From NCBI GenBank assembly GCA_036504035.1, contig DASXVV010000002.1, positions 1 through 64,000 of the forward strand: a DNA stretch of 64,000 nt, read 5' to 3'. This DNA is from Candidatus Deferrimicrobiaceae bacterium (GTDB lineage Bacteria > Desulfobacterota > Deferrimicrobia > Deferrimicrobiales > Deferrimicrobiaceae). Made by a program: the position numbers and the translations under genes. Positions 7,933 to 15,171 of this stretch are shown in pieces. The notes under the pieces are model-generated. The model did no database searches, was not told where the DNA came from, and saw only the letters and a program-made list of their open reading frames with translations. Positions within the stretch are counted from its first letter, which is position 1. Each line of letters opens with the position of its first letter.

Positions 7933-8487
7933 CTAGGCGGCATATTCCTCCGCCAGCCGGTGCATCATCGCGTGGAAGGCATCGTGGCGCCCGTGCCCGA
8001 CCCGCTCCTCCTCGATCCGCGCGAAGGCGGCGGACAGCCCCGCCTGCGTCTCCGGTGACAGGAGCTGGTCGGCGAGCGGGTAGAGCACGTTGTCCTCCTT
8101 GCCGATGTGGCCCGTCAGCAGCCCGATGTAGTCCCGGGCTTGCGCGGCGAACGCGACGCCCCCGCTCGCTGCTCCTCCCGCATATTCCCGGGCGGCGGCG
8201 GACATCGCCCGGACGAACGCCCGCCCCTGCTCGTGCTCGAACAGCATCTGCCCGATCGGCCCGCCCTCCCGGGGCACGCCGGCCGCCTCCATCGCGGGGA
8301 ACAGCTGCTCCTCCTCCTTCCCGTGATGGCAGGTGTCGACGAACACCTTGAGGAATTCGAGGATCTGCTCGAGGTGCTGCACGGGGACCGCCTGCCCCGC
8401 CGTCATCCTGCCGCACAGCCGGTCGATGATCCGCAGCATGACCTCGACGCCGCGATGCTCTTCCTTCAGCTCGTCCGTAGGCTTCAT
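7933..8487 (-). CDS. Hemerythrin (HHE) domain protein
   Basis: A 184-residue four-helix non-haem di-iron protein. Candidate iron ligands are His in EEHRG, His and Glu in CHHGKEEE, His in FEHEQG, and His/Glu/Asp in GHIGKED. This is the hemerythrin HHE-type layout, seen in proteins that bind O2 or NO or repair nitrosatively damaged Fe-S centres. The start at 8487 has GGAGGG seven bases upstream and overlaps the norB stop codon (ATGA), so the two are translationally coupled. Together with norC and norB this looks like an NO/O2 defence unit. The exact biochemical role is inferred from context. Confidence 0.88.
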   Translation of the reverse strand: MKPTDELKEEHRGVEVMLRIIDRLCGRMTAGQAVPVQHLEQILEFLKVFVDTCHHGKEEEQLFPAMEAAGVPREGGPIGQMLFEHEQGRAFVRAMSAAAREYAGGAASGGVAFAAQARDYIGLLTGHIGKEDNVLYPLADQLLSPETQAGLSAAFARIEEERVGHGRHDAFHAMMHRLAEEYAA

Positions 8488-9836
8488 GATTTTCCCTCCA
8501 AAGGCTGATCTGCCGGGACCGGCACAGGCCGGATCGTCAAGAGATCGGTCACGGCGGTCACCACGCCCGCGAAGAAAAAGAGCCCCGCGAACAGGGTGAC
8601 GCCCATCCACAGCCGCATGTAGGACTGCGCGGTCATGTATCCCAGCCCGAGCACCCGCTCGATGTAGGCCTGGAGCACGCCCGCGACGCCGAAGGTCAAC
8701 CCCATGACCATCATGGCGATGCACATCAGCCAGAAAGCGACCTTTCCCCGGCGCGGGTCATAGACCTCGATCCCCTTTAACCGGGGCATCGCGAAGTAGA
8801 AGGTGGTCAGGTTGAGCAGCGCGTAGGCTCCGAAGAAGGCGAGGTGGCCGTGCGAGACCGTGACCTGCGACCCGTGCGTGTAGTAGTTGATCTGCGGGAG
8901 CGTGTGGAGGAAGCCCCAGACGCCCGCCCCGACCAGATGGAAGACGGCGCATCCGATCGCGTAGGTCCAGGTGAGCGGGTTGACGACCGGCGCCCGGCGC
9001 CGCTTCACGTGGTGCATCGTGTCGACCAGCATCAGGACGATCGGCAGCGGCTCCAGCGCGGAGAAGACGCCGCCGACCCACAGCCAGTAGGTCGGGGCGC
9101 CGATCCAGTAATAGTGATGGCCGGTCCCTGCGACCCCGGTGAAGAGGAACAGGCCGATCTCGACGTAGAGCCACTTCTCGACCACCGCGCGGTCGACGCC
9201 GGTCAGCTTCATCAGGATGAACGCCATGATGGAGCCGGTCACCAGCTCCCAGGCGCCCTCGACCCAGAGGTGGATCACCCACCACCAGTAGTACCAGTCG
9301 ATAACGAGGTTCCGGTAGAAGGGGATGCCGAACAGGTAGAGCCCGGCGAGGAAGACGAGGCCGCCGAGCAGCGTCCCCTGGATGACGGTCCAGCGCCCCG
9401 CCCGGATCATCGTCATCCCGATGTTGAACAGGAAGATCAACGCACCGGCGACCACGACGAGGTTCAGCGGGAAGGGGATCTCGAGCAGCGGCCGCCCTTT
9501 CGTCCACCCGAAGGCGAAGCCGACCAGCGCAACGACGCCGGTCGCGAGCAGCGCCGCGAGCTGCAGGTAGGCGAGGAAAGGGGACCAGATCTCTGACTGC
9601 GATTCTTCGGGGACGATGTAGTAGGTGCCTCCCATGAAGCCGAGCAGCATCCAGAGGACAAGCAGGTTGGTGTGGAACGCCCGCGCGGTGGCGAACGGAA
9701 AGACGTCCACGACGGCCTGGGGAACCGTGAACGTGTAGTTGAAGGCGAGGTAGAGCCCGAGGACGACCTGCAGGACGAAGAGCGGCAGGGCGGCCGCGAA
9801 GTACCACCAGGCGATCTTCCGGGTGCGATATTCCAT
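8484..9836 (-). CDS. norB: Nitric oxide reductase large subunit
   Basis: A 450-residue haem-copper-superfamily membrane protein with about 12 hydrophobic segments. Recognisable ligands are the N-terminal low-spin haem His (FHTNLLVLW), the HLWVEGAWEL segment carrying an iron-site His and the NorB-type glutamates, the GTGHHYYW pair for the non-haem iron, and the C-terminal HGHLAFFGAY pair for haems b and b3. It reduces two NO to N2O using electrons from its cytochrome c subunit. The start at 9836 is preferred over ATG 9842 because the GGGGGAG ribosome site is then seven bases away. norC ends two bases upstream and hemerythrin overlaps its end. No other denitrification gene is visible, so detoxification is as likely as respiration. 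Confidence 0.93.
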   Translation of the reverse strand: MEYRTRKIAWWYFAAALPLFVLQVVLGLYLAFNYTFTVPQAVVDVFPFATARAFHTNLLVLWMLLGFMGGTYYIVPEESQSEIWSPFLAYLQLAALLATGVVALVGFAFGWTKGRPLLEIPFPLNLVVVAGALIFLFNIGMTMIRAGRWTVIQGTLLGGLVFLAGLYLFGIPFYRNLVIDWYYWWWVIHLWVEGAWELVTGSIMAFILMKLTGVDRAVVEKWLYVEIGLFLFTGVAGTGHHYYWIGAPTYWLWVGGVFSALEPLPIVLMLVDTMHHVKRRRAPVVNPLTWTYAIGCAVFHLVGAGVWGFLHTLPQINYYTHGSQVTVSHGHLAFFGAYALLNLTTFYFAMPRLKGIEVYDPRRGKVAFWLMCIAMMVMGLTFGVAGVLQAYIERVLGLGYMTAQSYMRLWMGVTLFAGLFFFAGVVTAVTDLLTIRPVPVPADQPLEGKS

Positions 9837-9838
9837 CG

Positions 9839-10552
9839 TCATACTCCCCCCTGCCTCTGCCCGGCGAGGAAACGGGCGACTTCTTCCCGCTCCCGGTCGG
9901 TCAGCCCGGTCTGGGGCGGCATCTTCGCCGCCGGGTTCTGCGCCTTGGGATTCCCGATGTAGTTTGCGATGGATTCCCGCGTGCGGCGCGCACCGACCTC
10001 GTCGAGCGCGGGGCCGAAGGTGCCGCCGACGCCATGAAGCGCGTGGCAGTTCATGCACCCCTTGGTCTGGAAGACGGCCGCGCCGGGGGAGACGCCAGCG
10101 GCGGACACCAACCGCTCGCTGCCCCGGGAAAGCCGCTTCCGGCTGTCTTGCGGCGGCCAGTCGCCGTTCTCGATCCCGCCGACCCAGGTGAAGAAGGCGA
10201 CGAGCGCATCGATCTCGGCAACGGTCACGTGCTGGTTCGGCATCTTGCGCCAGCCGTTGGCGAAGGCGCGCCCGGGGTCGGAGACCCGGATGCGGATGCC
10301 GTCGGCCCCGACCCGCTGCAGGACCCGGGTCAGGTCGGGCGCGTAGTAGCCGCCGAAGCCGAGGATCGTGTGGCAGTCGTTGCAGTTGTACTTCTGGAAG
10401 GCGCGCTTCCCGTCGACGACGTGCTCGTCGATCCGGTCGGCGTGCGACAGGGCGACGACCTGGCGCTGGGTGTCGAAGGTGAGGTAGAGGAACAAGAGCG
10501 AGGACGAGAGCGTGCCGACGAGGAAGATCCAGAACGCGATGCGTTTGCTCAT
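9839..10552 (-). CDS. norC: Nitric oxide reductase cytochrome c subunit, two haem domains
   Basis: A 237-residue membrane-anchored dihaem cytochrome. One N-terminal span (AFWIFLVGTLSSSLLFLYL) is followed by a NorC-like domain with CNDCH and the phrase TILGFGGYYAPDLTRV, then a second cytochrome c domain with CMNCH (ALHGVGGTFGPALDEVG). Classical NorC has one haem c, so this is a NorC fused to an extra class I cytochrome domain. Candidate axial methionines are KMP in each domain (WRKMPNQ and AKMPPQ). GGAGG lies eight bases before the ATG. It is the first gene of the norC-norB-hemerythrin-DoxX operon and is divergent from the hybrid kinase gene. Confidence 0.88.
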   Translation of the reverse strand: MSKRIAFWIFLVGTLSSSLLFLYLTFDTQRQVVALSHADRIDEHVVDGKRAFQKYNCNDCHTILGFGGYYAPDLTRVLQRVGADGIRIRVSDPGRAFANGWRKMPNQHVTVAEIDALVAFFTWVGGIENGDWPPQDSRKRLSRGSERLVSAAGVSPGAAVFQTKGCMNCHALHGVGGTFGPALDEVGARRTRESIANYIGNPKAQNPAAKMPPQTGLTDREREEVARFLAGQRQGGV

Positions 10553-10755: not shown

Positions 10756-13377
10756 GTGAGCGGTTATCGGAAAAGCATCCTGTTCCGGCTGAACGTCCTG
10801 GTCATCGCCGCCCTGTTGCCGGCGCTCGGCGTCATCCTTTACAACGGCTGGAAATTCCATCGGACCGTCATCGAGAATACCCGGGGGAGCCTGCTCCAGC
10901 TCGCCCAGGCCGTTGCCTTCCAGCACGAGGGGCAGGTCCAGGGGCTACACCTTCTGCTGGCCACGCTGGCGGAGGTCCCGTGCGTCCGGGCCGGGGACAC
11001 CGCCGCATGCGAGCGGCTCTTCCGGAAATCGCTGGAGCAGAACCCCTTCCTGCACGACATCCTCCTGGCCACCCCCGACGGCCGCGTAATCGGCGCAGGG
11101 CTTACGAAGCACGCGGGGGCAACCCTTTCGGACCGGAAATATTTCAGGGACGCGCTCGCGACAGGACGTTTTTCCGCAGGCGAGTACGAGCCGGGCCACC
11201 CGGGCTGGTACCCGCCGCTCAACTTCTGCCTCCCGGTCCGAGGGGGGGACGGCCGAGGGCGCATCACCCGGCTGCTCGTGGCCTCGCTCGACCTCGACGC
11301 CTTCGCGGGCTTCTGCCGCCGCCTCAACCTGCCCGAGGGATCCACGTTCAACCTGAGCGACCACCGGGGAGTTCTGGTCTATCGCTACCCGCGTCATAAT
11401 ACGGTCGTCCCGGGAACTCCCGACCGGCCCGAACTGCGCCGGCAGATGACCGGTCCCGATGAGGAAGGCTCCTTCTTCGGCGTCGGCCGCGACGATGTCC
11501 GGCGCCTGCTCGCGTTCAAGCGGCTCCGGCTCTCCCCCGACGCGCCCCCCTATCTCTACATCCGGCTGACCGTCCCTGAATCCTCCATCCGGACCGCCTC
11601 CCTTCGAAACGAGCGAAACAGCCTGTACCTCCTGGCGCTGTCCACCCTGGGGGCGCTGGCGGCTTCATGCGTCCTCGGCGGCCCGATCATCGGGCGGCGG
11701 CTGAAGCAGCTTGTGGCCGCCACGCGGCGGGTCGGGCAGGGCGAGCTGGCCGCCCAGACGGGGATTCCCCATGACGAATCCGAGATCGGCCAAGTGGCCG
11801 CCTCTTTCGACGACATGGCCCGACGACTCGAATCGGTCGACCGGGAGCGGAAGAATTCCCTGGATGCACTGCGCACCATCCTGCAGACGGCGCTCGACGG
11901 CTTCCTGGTGACCGACCTCGAGGGACGCATCCACGACGTCAACGAGGCCTTCTGCGTTATGACGGGATACGCGCGGGAAGAGCTGCTCTCGATGCGGCTG
12001 TCCGACCTGGAGACCGAGGTCAAGCCGGGAGAACTGGATGCCAAGATCCGCGACATCGTCCGGACAGAGGGCAGCCGAGTCGAAACGCGTCACCGCCGGA
12101 AGGACGGAACGAAGGTGGACCTCGAGATCAGCACGCGCTATCTCGCGCAGGAGGGCGGGAAGATCATCTCCTTCTTGCGGGACATCACCGGGCGGAAGCG
12201 GGACGAGGCGGAGCGCCGCCGGCTCCAGATCCAGATGCAGAACGCGCAGAAGCTCGAAAGCCTGGGCGTGCTGGCCGGCGGGATCGCCCATGACTTCAAC
12301 AACCTGCTCTTGGTCATCCTCGGCAACATCGACCTGGTCAGGTCGGGCGAGCCGCCTTTGCCTCCGGCGATGCGGCAGAGGCTGTCCGATGCCGACAAGG
12401 CGGCGCAGAAAGCCGCGGAACTGTGCCGGCAGATGCTGGCCTATACCGGCGGGGAGCCGCTTGCGGTCGAGCGGGTCGACATCGCCTTGGTCGTGAAGTC
12501 GATGGTCCCGCTGCTCGAGATGTCCGTCTCGAAGAAGGCTTCGCTCCGTGTCGACTGCGCCCCCGGGCTTCCTTCCGTGCCGGCCGACCCGGGGCAATTG
12601 CGGCAGGTCGTCATGAACCTCGTCGTGAACGCATCCGAGGCGCTCGAGGGAAAGACGGGAGTGATCACGCTCTCGACCCGGGTCGAGACGCCTCCCCCCG
12701 GCGTCATCGACGAGGGCGCCCGGGGGGCCGGGCTTCCGGCGCGAGTGTACGCCTGCATCGAGGTGACGGACAACGGCTGCGGCATGAAGCCCGCGATGCG
12801 GGAGCGCATCTTCGACCCGTTCTTCTCGACGAAATTCACGGGCCGGGGGCTCGGGCTGGCGGCGGTCCTCGGGATCGTCCGTGCGCACCACGGCGGGATC
12901 GCCGTCGAAAGCCGCCCGGGCAAAGGATCGCGTTTCAGGGTCTACATTCCCCTCGCCGAGGCGGCGTCTCCTTCGTCGGCCGATCCTCCGGCCGACGAAG
13001 GATGGACGGCCGGCGGGGTCGTGCTCCTGGTCGACGACGAGGAGATGGTCCGCGATGTGGGCGCCGAGATGCTCGCCGGCATCGGATTCCGCGTCATCCT
13101 GGCCGTCGACGGGGTCGAGGCGCTCGAGCGCTACCGGGAGCACCGGGGTGAAATCTCCCTGGTGATCCTGGACCTTACCATGCCGCGGATGGACGGCGAG
13201 GAAACGCTGAAAGCGTTGCGCGGGATCGACCCGGGCGTCCGGGTCCTGATCGCGAGCGGCTATCGGGAGGAGGGCGGCGGGCGGTTCGAGAAGATGAACC
13301 GTGTCGGCTTCCTTCCCAAACCGTACCGCATCGCCGAGCTCCGGTCGCAGGTGCGTCGGGTGCTCGAACGGGCCTGA
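10756..13377 (+). CDS. Membrane hybrid sensor histidine kinase (Cache-HAMP-PAS-HisKA-REC)
   Basis: An 873-residue hybrid kinase. The order is an N-terminal membrane span (~12-32), a periplasmic Cache-like sensor (~35-290), a second span (~293-315, LYLLALSTLGALAAS), HAMP (~315-365), PAS (~370-480), HisKA with phospho-acceptor His512 in GGIAHDFNN, and an HATPase with N box NLVVNASEAL, G1 DNGCGM and G2 GRGLGLA. A C-terminal receiver carries Asp806 in LDLTMP and a KPY lysine. It starts with GTG; the upstream sequence holds GGGAGG and GGGGA. There is no DNA-binding output and no adjacent separate regulator, so phosphate presumably passes to an unlinked partner. It is divergent from norC; control of the NO operon is possible but unproven. 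The ligand is unknown. Confidence 0.88.
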   Translation: MSGYRKSILFRLNVLVIAALLPALGVILYNGWKFHRTVIENTRGSLLQLAQAVAFQHEGQVQGLHLLLATLAEVPCVRAGDTAACERLFRKSLEQNPFLHDILLATPDGRVIGAGLTKHAGATLSDRKYFRDALATGRFSAGEYEPGHPGWYPPLNFCLPVRGGDGRGRITRLLVASLDLDAFAGFCRRLNLPEGSTFNLSDHRGVLVYRYPRHNTVVPGTPDRPELRRQMTGPDEEGSFFGVGRDDVRRLLAFKRLRLSPDAPPYLYIRLTVPESSIRTASLRNERNSLYLLALSTLGALAASCVLGGPIIGRRLKQLVAATRRVGQGELAAQTGIPHDESEIGQVAASFDDMARRLESVDRERKNSLDALRTILQTALDGFLVTDLEGRIHDVNEAFCVMTGYAREELLSMRLSDLETEVKPGELDAKIRDIVRTEGSRVETRHRRKDGTKVDLEISTRYLAQEGGKIISFLRDITGRKRDEAERRRLQIQMQNAQKLESLGVLAGGIAHDFNNLLLVILGNIDLVRSGEPPLPPAMRQRLSDADKAAQKAAELCRQMLAYTGGEPLAVERVDIALVVKSMVPLLEMSVSKKASLRVDCAPGLPSVPADPGQLRQVVMNLVVNASEALEGKTGVITLSTRVETPPPGVIDEGARGAGLPARVYACIEVTDNGCGMKPAMRERIFDPFFSTKFTGRGLGLAAVLGIVRAHHGGIAVESRPGKGSRFRVYIPLAEAASPSSADPPADEGWTAGGVVLLVDDEEMVRDVGAEMLAGIGFRVILAVDGVEALERYREHRGEISLVILDLTMPRMDGEETLKALRGIDPGVRVLIASGYREEGGGRFEKMNRVGFLPKPYRIAELRSQVRRVLERA

Positions 13378-13498: not shown

Positions 13499-14572
13499 AT
13501 GGAAATCTCCTGTAATCTGCTTCCCCCCGCCCGACGTCGCCCCCGCCCGACCGACGAAAGCAAGCTCGGCTTCGGGGCGATCTTCACCGACCACATGGTC
13601 CGGATCGAATATTCCAAGGGCAGGGGATGGCATGACGCCCGAGTCGAGCCTTACGGCCCGATCACCCTCGACCCGGCGGCGATGGTGTTCCACTACGGCC
13701 AGGAGATTTTCGAGGGTCTCAAAGCTTATCGCGGGAAGGACGGCGCGCTCCTGACGTTCCGCCCCGAGGCCAATTTCGAGCGGCTCAACCGTTCCGCGTC
13801 CCGGCTCTGCCTGCCCGAATTGCCGGTCGAAGCGGCGCTGGCCTCCCTGTTCGCCCTGCTCAAGGCCGATGCCGACTGGGTCCCCTCGACGCGCGGCACC
13901 TCGCTCTACATCCGGCCCGCGATGATCGCGACCGAGGCGGGGCTGGGCGTCCGCTCCGCCGGCGAGGTGCTCTTCTTCATCATCGCCGGCCCGGTGGGCA
14001 ACTACTATGCGCGCGGGCTCGAGCCGGTCAACATCCTCGTCGAGGAGAAGTATGTCCGCGTGCCGCGCGGCGGCACGGGCGAGGCCAAGACCGGCGGCAA
14101 CTACGCCGCAAGCCTCCTCGCGGCCAAGGAGGCCAAGGAAAAGGGATTCGACCAGGTGCTCTGGCTCGACGCCGTCACGCAGACGACGATCGAGGAGGTG
14201 GGGACCATGAACATCTTCTTCCTGGTCGGGGACGAGCTCGTCACGCCGCCGCTGCTCGGGTCGATCCTCCCCGGCATCACCCGCGATTGCGTCCTGAAGA
14301 TCGCACGCGACCACGGCTGGAAGGTCTCCGAGCGCCCCATCAGCATCTCCGAGATCCGCAATGCGGCGGCCGACGGGTCGCTGCGCGAAGTGTTCGGCAC
14401 GGGTACCGCGGCCGTCATCTCCCCCGTCGGGATGCTCAAGTACAAAGACGAGACGTTCCCGGTGAACGGCGGGCAGATCGGCGCGATGGCCAAGCAGCTC
14501 TTCGACGAGATCACCGGCATCCAGTATGGCGAGCTCCCCGACCGGTTCGGGTGGGTGCACCGCGTCGAATAG
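13499..14572 (+). CDS. ilvE: Branched-chain amino acid aminotransferase
   Basis: A 357-residue class IV (D-amino-acid transaminase fold) PLP enzyme of the BCAT type. It shows FHYGQEIFEGLKAYR, the region with catalytic Lys in EAKTGGNYAAS, the GTMNIFF segment, and a C-terminal GTGTAAVISPVG phosphate-binding loop. It catalyses the last step of Ile/Leu/Val synthesis and the first of their breakdown, with 2-oxoglutarate/glutamate as partner. Length and motif order fit full-length BCATs. AAAGGA precedes the ATG by about eight bases. It is a single plus-strand gene after the kinase (121-base gap). A TAGAAT sequence about 60 bases upstream may be its -10 element, but no convincing -35 is seen. Confidence 0.93.
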   Translation: MEISCNLLPPARRRPRPTDESKLGFGAIFTDHMVRIEYSKGRGWHDARVEPYGPITLDPAAMVFHYGQEIFEGLKAYRGKDGALLTFRPEANFERLNRSASRLCLPELPVEAALASLFALLKADADWVPSTRGTSLYIRPAMIATEAGLGVRSAGEVLFFIIAGPVGNYYARGLEPVNILVEEKYVRVPRGGTGEAKTGGNYAASLLAAKEAKEKGFDQVLWLDAVTQTTIEEVGTMNIFFLVGDELVTPPLLGSILPGITRDCVLKIARDHGWKVSERPISISEIRNAAADGSLREVFGTGTAAVISPVGMLKYKDETFPVNGGQIGAMAKQLFDEITGIQYGELPDRFGWVHRVE

Positions 14573-14594
14573 TCGGATCGGTTGGGTGTAAACA

Positions 14595-14625
14595 CGCACG
14601 CCCGGCGGAATCCGCCGGGCGTGCG
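14595..14625. terminator. Perfect 15-bp inverted repeat after ilvE
   Basis: CGCACGCCCGGCGGA is followed after one base by its exact reverse complement (14595-14609 and 14611-14625), 22 bases downstream of the ilvE stop codon. The transcript would form a very stable GC-rich hairpin. There is no U-tract on either side, so it is either an atypical terminator, an mRNA 3'-end stabiliser, or a palindromic binding site in front of the small RNA promoter. Confidence 0.45.
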
Positions 14626-14629
14626 CTAC

Positions 14630-14648
14630 TGATAACCGTTCATTATCA
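14630..14648. promoter_or_regulatory. Inverted repeat, candidate activator site for the sigma-54 promoter
   Basis: TGATAA-N7-TTATCA is a perfect 6-bp-arm dyad centred about 60 bases before the predicted sigma-54 start site, in an AT-rich patch. A further GTTATC lies at about 14658. Sigma-54 promoters need an enhancer-binding ATPase bound upstream, and this is the only clear dyad available. Assignment is inference. Confidence 0.4.
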
Positions 14649-14672
14649 CGCCATTACGTTATCGATAGTGTT

Positions 14673-14688
14673 TGGCACATGGGTTGCA
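14673..14688 (+). promoter_or_regulatory. Sigma-54 (-24/-12) promoter
   Basis: TGGCAC, five bases, then TTGCA, with GG at 14674-14675 and GC at 14686-14687, an essentially perfect match to the RpoN consensus (TGGCACN5TTGCW). It points right and predicts a start near G14699. No protein gene follows on this strand; a compact hairpin structure and terminator do. Confidence 0.7.
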
Positions 14689-14698
14689 CATGTATGAC

Positions 14699-14794
14699 GG
14701 CAGTGGATGCGCAGCGCGAAATCGCAGCGTTTCCCTGCCCCCGCCGGAGGGTTCGAAGATTACCCCCACACGACCCTCCGGCACCCCCTTTTTT
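14699..14794 (+). ncRNA. Candidate sigma-54-dependent small RNA, about 96 nt
   Basis: The transcript predicted from the sigma-54 promoter would begin GGCAG and end in six U after a terminator hairpin. A 5' stem pairs GGCAG (14699-14703) with CTGCC (14735-14739), extended inward by GGA with TCC and TGCG with CGCA. The 3' stem pairs GCCGGAGGGT (14743-14752) with ACCCTCCGGC (14773-14782), followed by ACCCCC and T6 (14789-14794). Its 20-base loop contains CCCCCACAC and the linker contains CCCCC, single-stranded C-runs that could pair with purine-rich ribosome-binding sites. No convincing short ORF with a ribosome site lies inside. I know of no named RNA matching it. The sequence shows promoter, fold and terminator; function is inference. 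Confidence 0.5.
14743..14794 (+). terminator. Rho-independent terminator of the small RNA
   Basis: Perfect 10-bp stem GCCGGAGGGT/ACCCTCCGGC (14743-14752, 14773-14782) with a 20-base loop. After a six-base ACCCCC spacer comes a T6 run (14789-14794). The long loop and the spacer before the U-run are slightly unusual. Confidence 0.6.
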
Positions 14795-14823: not shown

Positions 14824-15171
14824 TCAGCGACGCTTGCTACCAGGAAGAGGGGCGGGACCGACGCCCAGCCTGGCATAGGCGACATCCGGGGCGAGACCGT
14901 GGATCCGGACCAGTTTGTTGCGGCCGTGGTCGCCGGCGACGAGTTCAAGTTGGCCTTTCGCGAGACCGAGCGCCTTCGCCAGGAAGCGGATCAGCGCCTC
15001 GTTGGCCTTTCCCTCGACCGGCGGAGCCGTAAGCCGGATCTTGAGCACGCCCTCGGACAGCCCCGAAACCTCTTCCCTGGACGACCTGGGCTGGACGCGG
15101 ACCGCGAGGACGAACGGTTGCTCGGTGTCGACCGACGATGCGGCGGCAGGGGCTGCGGGGCGGCGGCTCAC
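14824..15171 (-). CDS. DUF167 / YggU family protein
   Basis: A 115-residue small cytosolic protein of the DUF167 (YggU) family. Characteristic segments are [15 protein letters not shown], the family core [18 protein letters not shown], and [13 protein letters not shown]. Biochemical function is unknown; the fold is alpha/beta. It starts at GTG 15171, whose bases overlap the yggT stop codon (GTGA), showing translational coupling. The N-terminal Ala/Pro-rich ~18 residues are extra to the family core. It is the last gene of the maf-yggS-proC-yggT-DUF167 run and faces the plus-strand small RNA terminator. Confidence 0.85.

Follow-up and report, generated by a model that had tools for sequence, protein, structure and literature searches.

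A predicted small RNA gene with a conserved putative sigma-54 promoter behind ilvE in an uncultured deltaproteobacterium

The ilvE-DUF167 intergenic region and its predicted RNA

The window analysed here is a contig stretch of 64,000 nucleotides from an uncultured deltaproteobacterium, in which a branched-chain aminotransferase gene (ilvE) and a convergent DUF167/YggU gene flank a region without a protein gene. The following features were located in and around this gap (strand in brackets, with a dot where none applies).

13499-14572 (+): ilvE, branched-chain aminotransferase; open reading frame (ORF), Aminotran_4 in orthologues, IlvE search and downstream sequences
14578-14598 (+): conserved upstream element, a candidate activator (enhancer-binding protein) site with putative binding, ~95 bp before -24
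14596-14624 (.): GC-rich inverted repeat, possibly the ilvE transcript end; seen in the sequence of this genome only
14630-14648 (.): TGATAA-N7-TTATCA dyad; exact, not conserved outside this genome
14673-14688 (+): predicted sigma-54 -24/-12 promoter TGGCACATGGGTTGCA; from sequence, with GGCAY-N5-TTGC in 9/9 copies
14699-14794 (+): predicted small RNA (sRNA) of ~96 nt, both ends predicted; fold z -6.2, homologues
14699-14739 (+): 5' hairpin with a C-rich segment in its 3' arm; fold and alignment
14730-14740 (+): nearly invariant UUUCCCUGCCC segment, candidate target-pairing seed; alignment, UUCCCUGCCCC kept in the sister family
14743-14782 (+): 3' hairpin with GCCGGAGGGUU/AACCCUCCGGC arms and a variable ~20-nt loop; fold and alignment
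14783-14794 (+): ACCCCC tail (conserved) and T6 run (eroded in some relatives); alignment
14824-15171 (-): DUF167/YggU gene, convergent neighbour; ORF, DUF167 in orthologues

Two neighbouring loci are recorded for completeness. A hybrid sensor kinase gene (Cache, HAMP, PAS, HATPase and receiver domains; 10756-13377, + strand) lies directly 5' of ilvE, with no link to the sRNA shown, and COX1-type and cytochrome-c genes resembling a norCB nitric-oxide reductase pair occupy 8484-10552 on the minus strand.

The predicted 96-nt RNA folds with -46 kcal/mol compared to a mean of -26.5 kcal/mol for shuffled sequences, and z ranges from -4.4 to -7.9 across the six homologous copies folded. Its core is almost invariant, consisting of UUUCCCUGCCC, then the GCCGGAGGGUU/AACCCUCCGGC hairpin and then a CCCC tail. 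A GGCAG/CTGCC 5' stem had been described in an earlier note on this DNA; the pairing is present (14699-14703 with 14735-14739), but rather than a stem in full it forms the base of a ~41-nt hairpin (-23.6 kcal/mol on its own) holding the C-rich segment, with the lowest pairs the least conserved. The 10-bp 3' stem (14743-14752 with 14773-14782) is identical among copies except for G-U changes at the last pair. Together with the T6 run (14789-14794) it had been taken for a terminator. Both elements are indeed there, but the arrangement is not that of a typical terminator: the stem is followed by ACCCCC before the T run begins, the loop spans ~20 nt, and three of the nine copies (G010, G019 and one G004 copy) have an eroded T run. 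A simple terminator scan did not report this hairpin because the scan allows loops of up to 8 nt.

Both stems are conserved in relatives, while the covariation looked for alongside is slight, since there is hardly any variation in the stems: only two double changes were seen, in an alignment of which one row is a spurious antisense match. In the 3' hairpin of G024, a genome of the sister family, both partners of an A-U pair have changed to give G-C. The earlier note offered no named RNA of this form, and a search of Rfam 15 returned no match in the interval at the gathering score, the best weak match reaching 16.5-17 bits against cut-offs of at least 40.

Homologues, promoter and upstream region

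BLAST of the intergenic region against 59 genomes matched seven further members of the family, with two hits in one of them. Nine copies are found in 8 of 24 family genomes, all directly 3' of ilvE, and a covariance model recovered the same nine among these 24. The ilvE gene is the constant upstream neighbour on the same strand in all nine, as judged by ORF, Pfam and protein search; the latter confirmed ilvE at loci where Pfam left it in doubt. When the covariance model was applied to 395 genomes of the phylum, no copy was detected outside the class, under stricter filters by which weak homologues may be missed. A diverged copy occurs in G024 (E 0.009 by covariance model), with TGGCATGCTTTTTGCC upstream and located near DUF167-YggT. 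This copy keeps UUCCCUGCCCC and has not kept the 5' hairpin, and ilvE was not found near it.

Both ilvE copies of G004 (contigs G004:C180 and G004:C37) carry the sRNA behind them. The short contig C180, which clusters with G008, could be a contaminant or hold a paralogue. A 16-mer search of genome contigs proved too short and gave mostly chance matches; among the loci checked with the covariance model, only L049, L056 and L126 were true. The last of these (JAENIX010000188.1), deposited as Actinomycetota, carries both sRNA and ilvE, matches G019 of the window's family in length and coordinates, and looks mislabelled.

In genomes without the RNA, the DUF167 gene or an SDR gene starts almost at the ilvE stop codon. 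Promoter and RNA thus occur together as a unit or not at all. Three copies precede a co-directional SDR gene in place of a convergent gene. Carriers fall on both main branches of the IlvE tree, and the simplest reading of this distribution is that the locus would be old and lost several times.

The -24/-12 promoter reported in the earlier note is an exact match, TGGCACATGGGTTGCA being the sole site with at most one mismatch in 64 kb (0.39 expected). It also held up in relatives, where conservation had been proposed as a check: GGCAY-N5-TTGC is retained in all nine close copies at a constant distance from the nearly invariant core (54-56 bp before CGTTTCCCTGCCC), and GG at -24 and GC at -12, 10 bp apart (GG-N10-GC), are seen in the nine copies and in G024. 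From the usual -12 spacing, the predicted +1 is G14699. Across the 3.17 Mb genome, TGGCAY-N5-TTGCW occurs at 9 sites compared to 4 for the reversed pattern; two of the nine precede amtB and glnB-glnA (gene names from sequence), which are classical sigma-54 genes. Taken with the fold and the synteny, these observations make it very probable that a conserved sRNA gene under a sigma-54 promoter occupies the ilvE-DUF167 gap.

Sites for the enhancer-binding proteins of sigma-54 promoters usually lie ~80-150 bp upstream. In all genera a conserved element occurs at -95/-96 relative to -24, and G024 has a similar one at -86. The motif has an information content of 10.8, where 12 shuffles gave a mean of 9.9 (sd 0.2), and five of six motif positions agree within 1 bp. 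No second sigma-54 locus carrying the element was found, matches being no commoner than those of the reversed-pattern control. The TGATAA-N7-TTATCA dyad had earlier been listed as the first signal of the gap. It is exact, where none is expected by chance in the window, but beyond this genome only a half-site is kept, in the window's genus, and the dyad was rejected as a conserved activator site. The start assigned to the region in the earlier note, 14595, falls at the inverted repeat confined to this genome.

The sRNA upstream element reads TGCG...CGCA or GTGT...ACAC and is unlike the ATGTC...GACA sites that precede amtB within this family, so the activator of the sRNA promoter is probably other than that serving amtB. 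This comparison with amtB promoters gives no support to the nitrogen regulon that had been suggested, nor to an NtrC-type assignment, for which an amtB-like upstream site would be expected. Across the family, the amtB upstream regions themselves (e.g. L208, L213, L223) contain a repeated ATGTC...GACAT ~60-100 bp before their sigma-54 promoter. This repeat is a candidate for the activator motif through which the lineage controls its nitrogen genes.

Mode of action and candidate target

No match to Hfq was found in 26 genomes of the class, for which controls were positive, and four near-complete carriers (G002, G004, G008 and G024) yielded no CsrA. Base pairing without these proteins would therefore be the likeliest mode of action, and we consider it fairly probable that the sRNA pairs with ribosome-binding sites. 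The C-rich segments previously proposed for such pairing are present in seed, loop and tail; they are not all unpaired as had been assumed, since the predicted fold places UUUCCCUGCCC inside the 5' hairpin, and the seed must consequently open to pair.

A mechanism can be proposed on this basis. An enhancer-binding protein bound ~120 bp upstream of the start would activate sigma-54 RNA polymerase at 14673-14688, and the stand-alone gene would yield a ~96-nt noncoding RNA that forms two hairpins and leaves C-rich patches unpaired. Once opened, the invariant UUUCCCUGCCC would pair with ribosome-binding sites rich in G and so prevent translation, with no need of Hfq. Foremost among the candidate targets would be the ribosome-binding site on the mRNA for a c-type cytochrome with ~13 hemes. 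With moderate confidence, we favour this model of an activator-switched, Hfq-independent sigma-54 sRNA that blocks ribosome-binding sites, with the cytochrome as leading candidate.

Targets were sought as perfect seed complements (9-base match) close to an ATG in 16 genomes, and 30 loci were fetched. Such complements before ATG are no commoner in carriers than in non-carriers among the 16. The sole orthologue recurring across genera among the 30 loci is the ~13-heme cytochrome (Paired_CXXCH), in three genera. The gene (G000:C11:93975-95279, L293), whose leader carries the seed complement, encodes a protein weakly resembling the DmsE and GSU2203 decaheme families. It precedes a thioredoxin-like/TPR gene, and 62 nt upstream of it lies a gene whose product, judged by its sequence, appears to end like CcsA/ResC. 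The cytochrome leader GGGGCAGGGAGGUUGCGAAUG shows the strongest seed pairing, ranking first among the 332 genes crudely called in a 464-kb sample, although this rank is not an independent test because the gene had been selected for its seed match to begin with. Within the leader, GGGCAGGGAGG is intact in g1, g3 and g11, is one base shorter in g7 and is degraded in g9 and G024.

The sRNA and the cytochrome occur together in 8 genomes, with 1 having the sRNA only, 2 the cytochrome only and 15 neither (Fisher p 2e-4); kinship, missing contigs or a shared respiratory lifestyle could be the cause of this association. The link to a cytochrome regulon raised in the earlier note gains indirect support, in that the best-pairing conserved ribosome-binding site is that of a multiheme cytochrome. 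We regard the cytochrome mRNA as a tentative and somewhat doubtful target. Still less likely is the complete chain, in which a signal would act through an uncharacterised enhancer-binding protein and the Hfq-independent sigma-54 sRNA on cytochrome translation, with sRNA and cytochrome kept or lost together across the lineage.

It is distinctly possible that the sRNA is a genuine sigma-54-dependent regulator aimed elsewhere, at other G-rich ribosome-binding sites and perhaps many at once, in the manner of C-rich multi-target sRNAs. The seed is C-rich, as are loop and tail; G-rich leaders will pair with any such seed; and several other sampled leaders pair nearly as well as the cytochrome's (-25 kcal/mol). 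Furthermore, in some carriers (G019 and G024) the cytochrome leader has lost part of its pairing, and carrier G010 has no close cytochrome orthologue. Against this stands the recurrence across genera of the cytochrome alone, albeit in a search that required a perfect 9-base match near the ATG.

Binding of a protein in place of an mRNA appears unlikely. Conservation of both stems in sequence, beyond pairing, could reflect an RNA-binding protein reading the invariant stems, and the RNA holds two GGA motifs in a genome that encodes CsrA. However, both motifs lie inside stems instead of loops, and CsrA was not found in the four near-complete carriers named above but is present in non-carriers. A CsrA decoy of the CsrB/RsmZ type was thus rejected as a general mechanism, and the lack of an Hfq match counts against protein binding as well.

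Even less probable is that the promoter is real and the RNA a by-product, the conserved 3' hairpin serving mainly to terminate ilvE and DUF167 transcripts. The hairpin does lie between convergent genes in several genomes, but the conserved block spans the -24/-12 element, the fixed spacing and the 5' hairpin, genera without the block manage without it, and the three copies before an SDR gene have no convergent partner. A small-protein gene was rejected as wholly improbable: an ORF beginning at ATG 14707 extends over 173 codons in the window, but it runs antisense through DUF167, the ATG is absent in L003 and others, the core contains one-base indels, and among the possible frames none is conserved in the alignment of close homologues.

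Relation to known small RNAs

To our knowledge, few sRNAs are encoded by stand-alone genes under sigma-54 promoters, and we are aware of little on small RNAs in deltaproteobacteria that have no Hfq. The sequence by itself is enough to identify such an sRNA gene. Now that a conserved family offers a defined promoter, a seed and a candidate cytochrome target, post-transcriptional control of respiration can be tested directly in an uncultured group.

The CrcZ/CrcY RNAs of Pseudomonas and Azotobacter are encoded by stand-alone genes, each under an RpoN-dependent promoter of its own with an activator (CbrB) site upstream, and antagonise Hfq-Crc (PMC6292655). The ilvE-side sRNA resembles them in having its own predicted sigma-54 promoter; unlike them, it occurs in a class of which 26 genomes gave no match to Hfq, and no sequence or Rfam match connects the two. 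Titration of Hfq-Crc as its mode of action is not supported by this Hfq search.

CJnc230 (FlmE) of Campylobacter is RpoN-dependent, about 90-98 nt long and always located behind one gene, being processed from the flgE mRNA; its conserved anti-Shine-Dalgarno segment represses translation at ribosome-binding sites, with Hfq unmentioned in its action (PMC11187230). The ilvE-side sRNA is similar in predicted size, in its conserved place behind one gene and in its putative anti-Shine-Dalgarno segment, but has its own predicted -24/-12 promoter and an unrelated sequence. C-rich segments aimed at ribosome-binding sites, often Hfq-free, are also known from RsaE of staphylococci and from alphaproteobacterial anti-Shine-Dalgarno RNAs; here promoters, sequences and hosts differ from those of the ilvE-side sRNA, and there is no family match. 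As judged by these comparisons, the predicted ilvE-side RNA would be a new sRNA family, sharing the full set of defining features with neither CrcZ/CrcY nor CJnc230.
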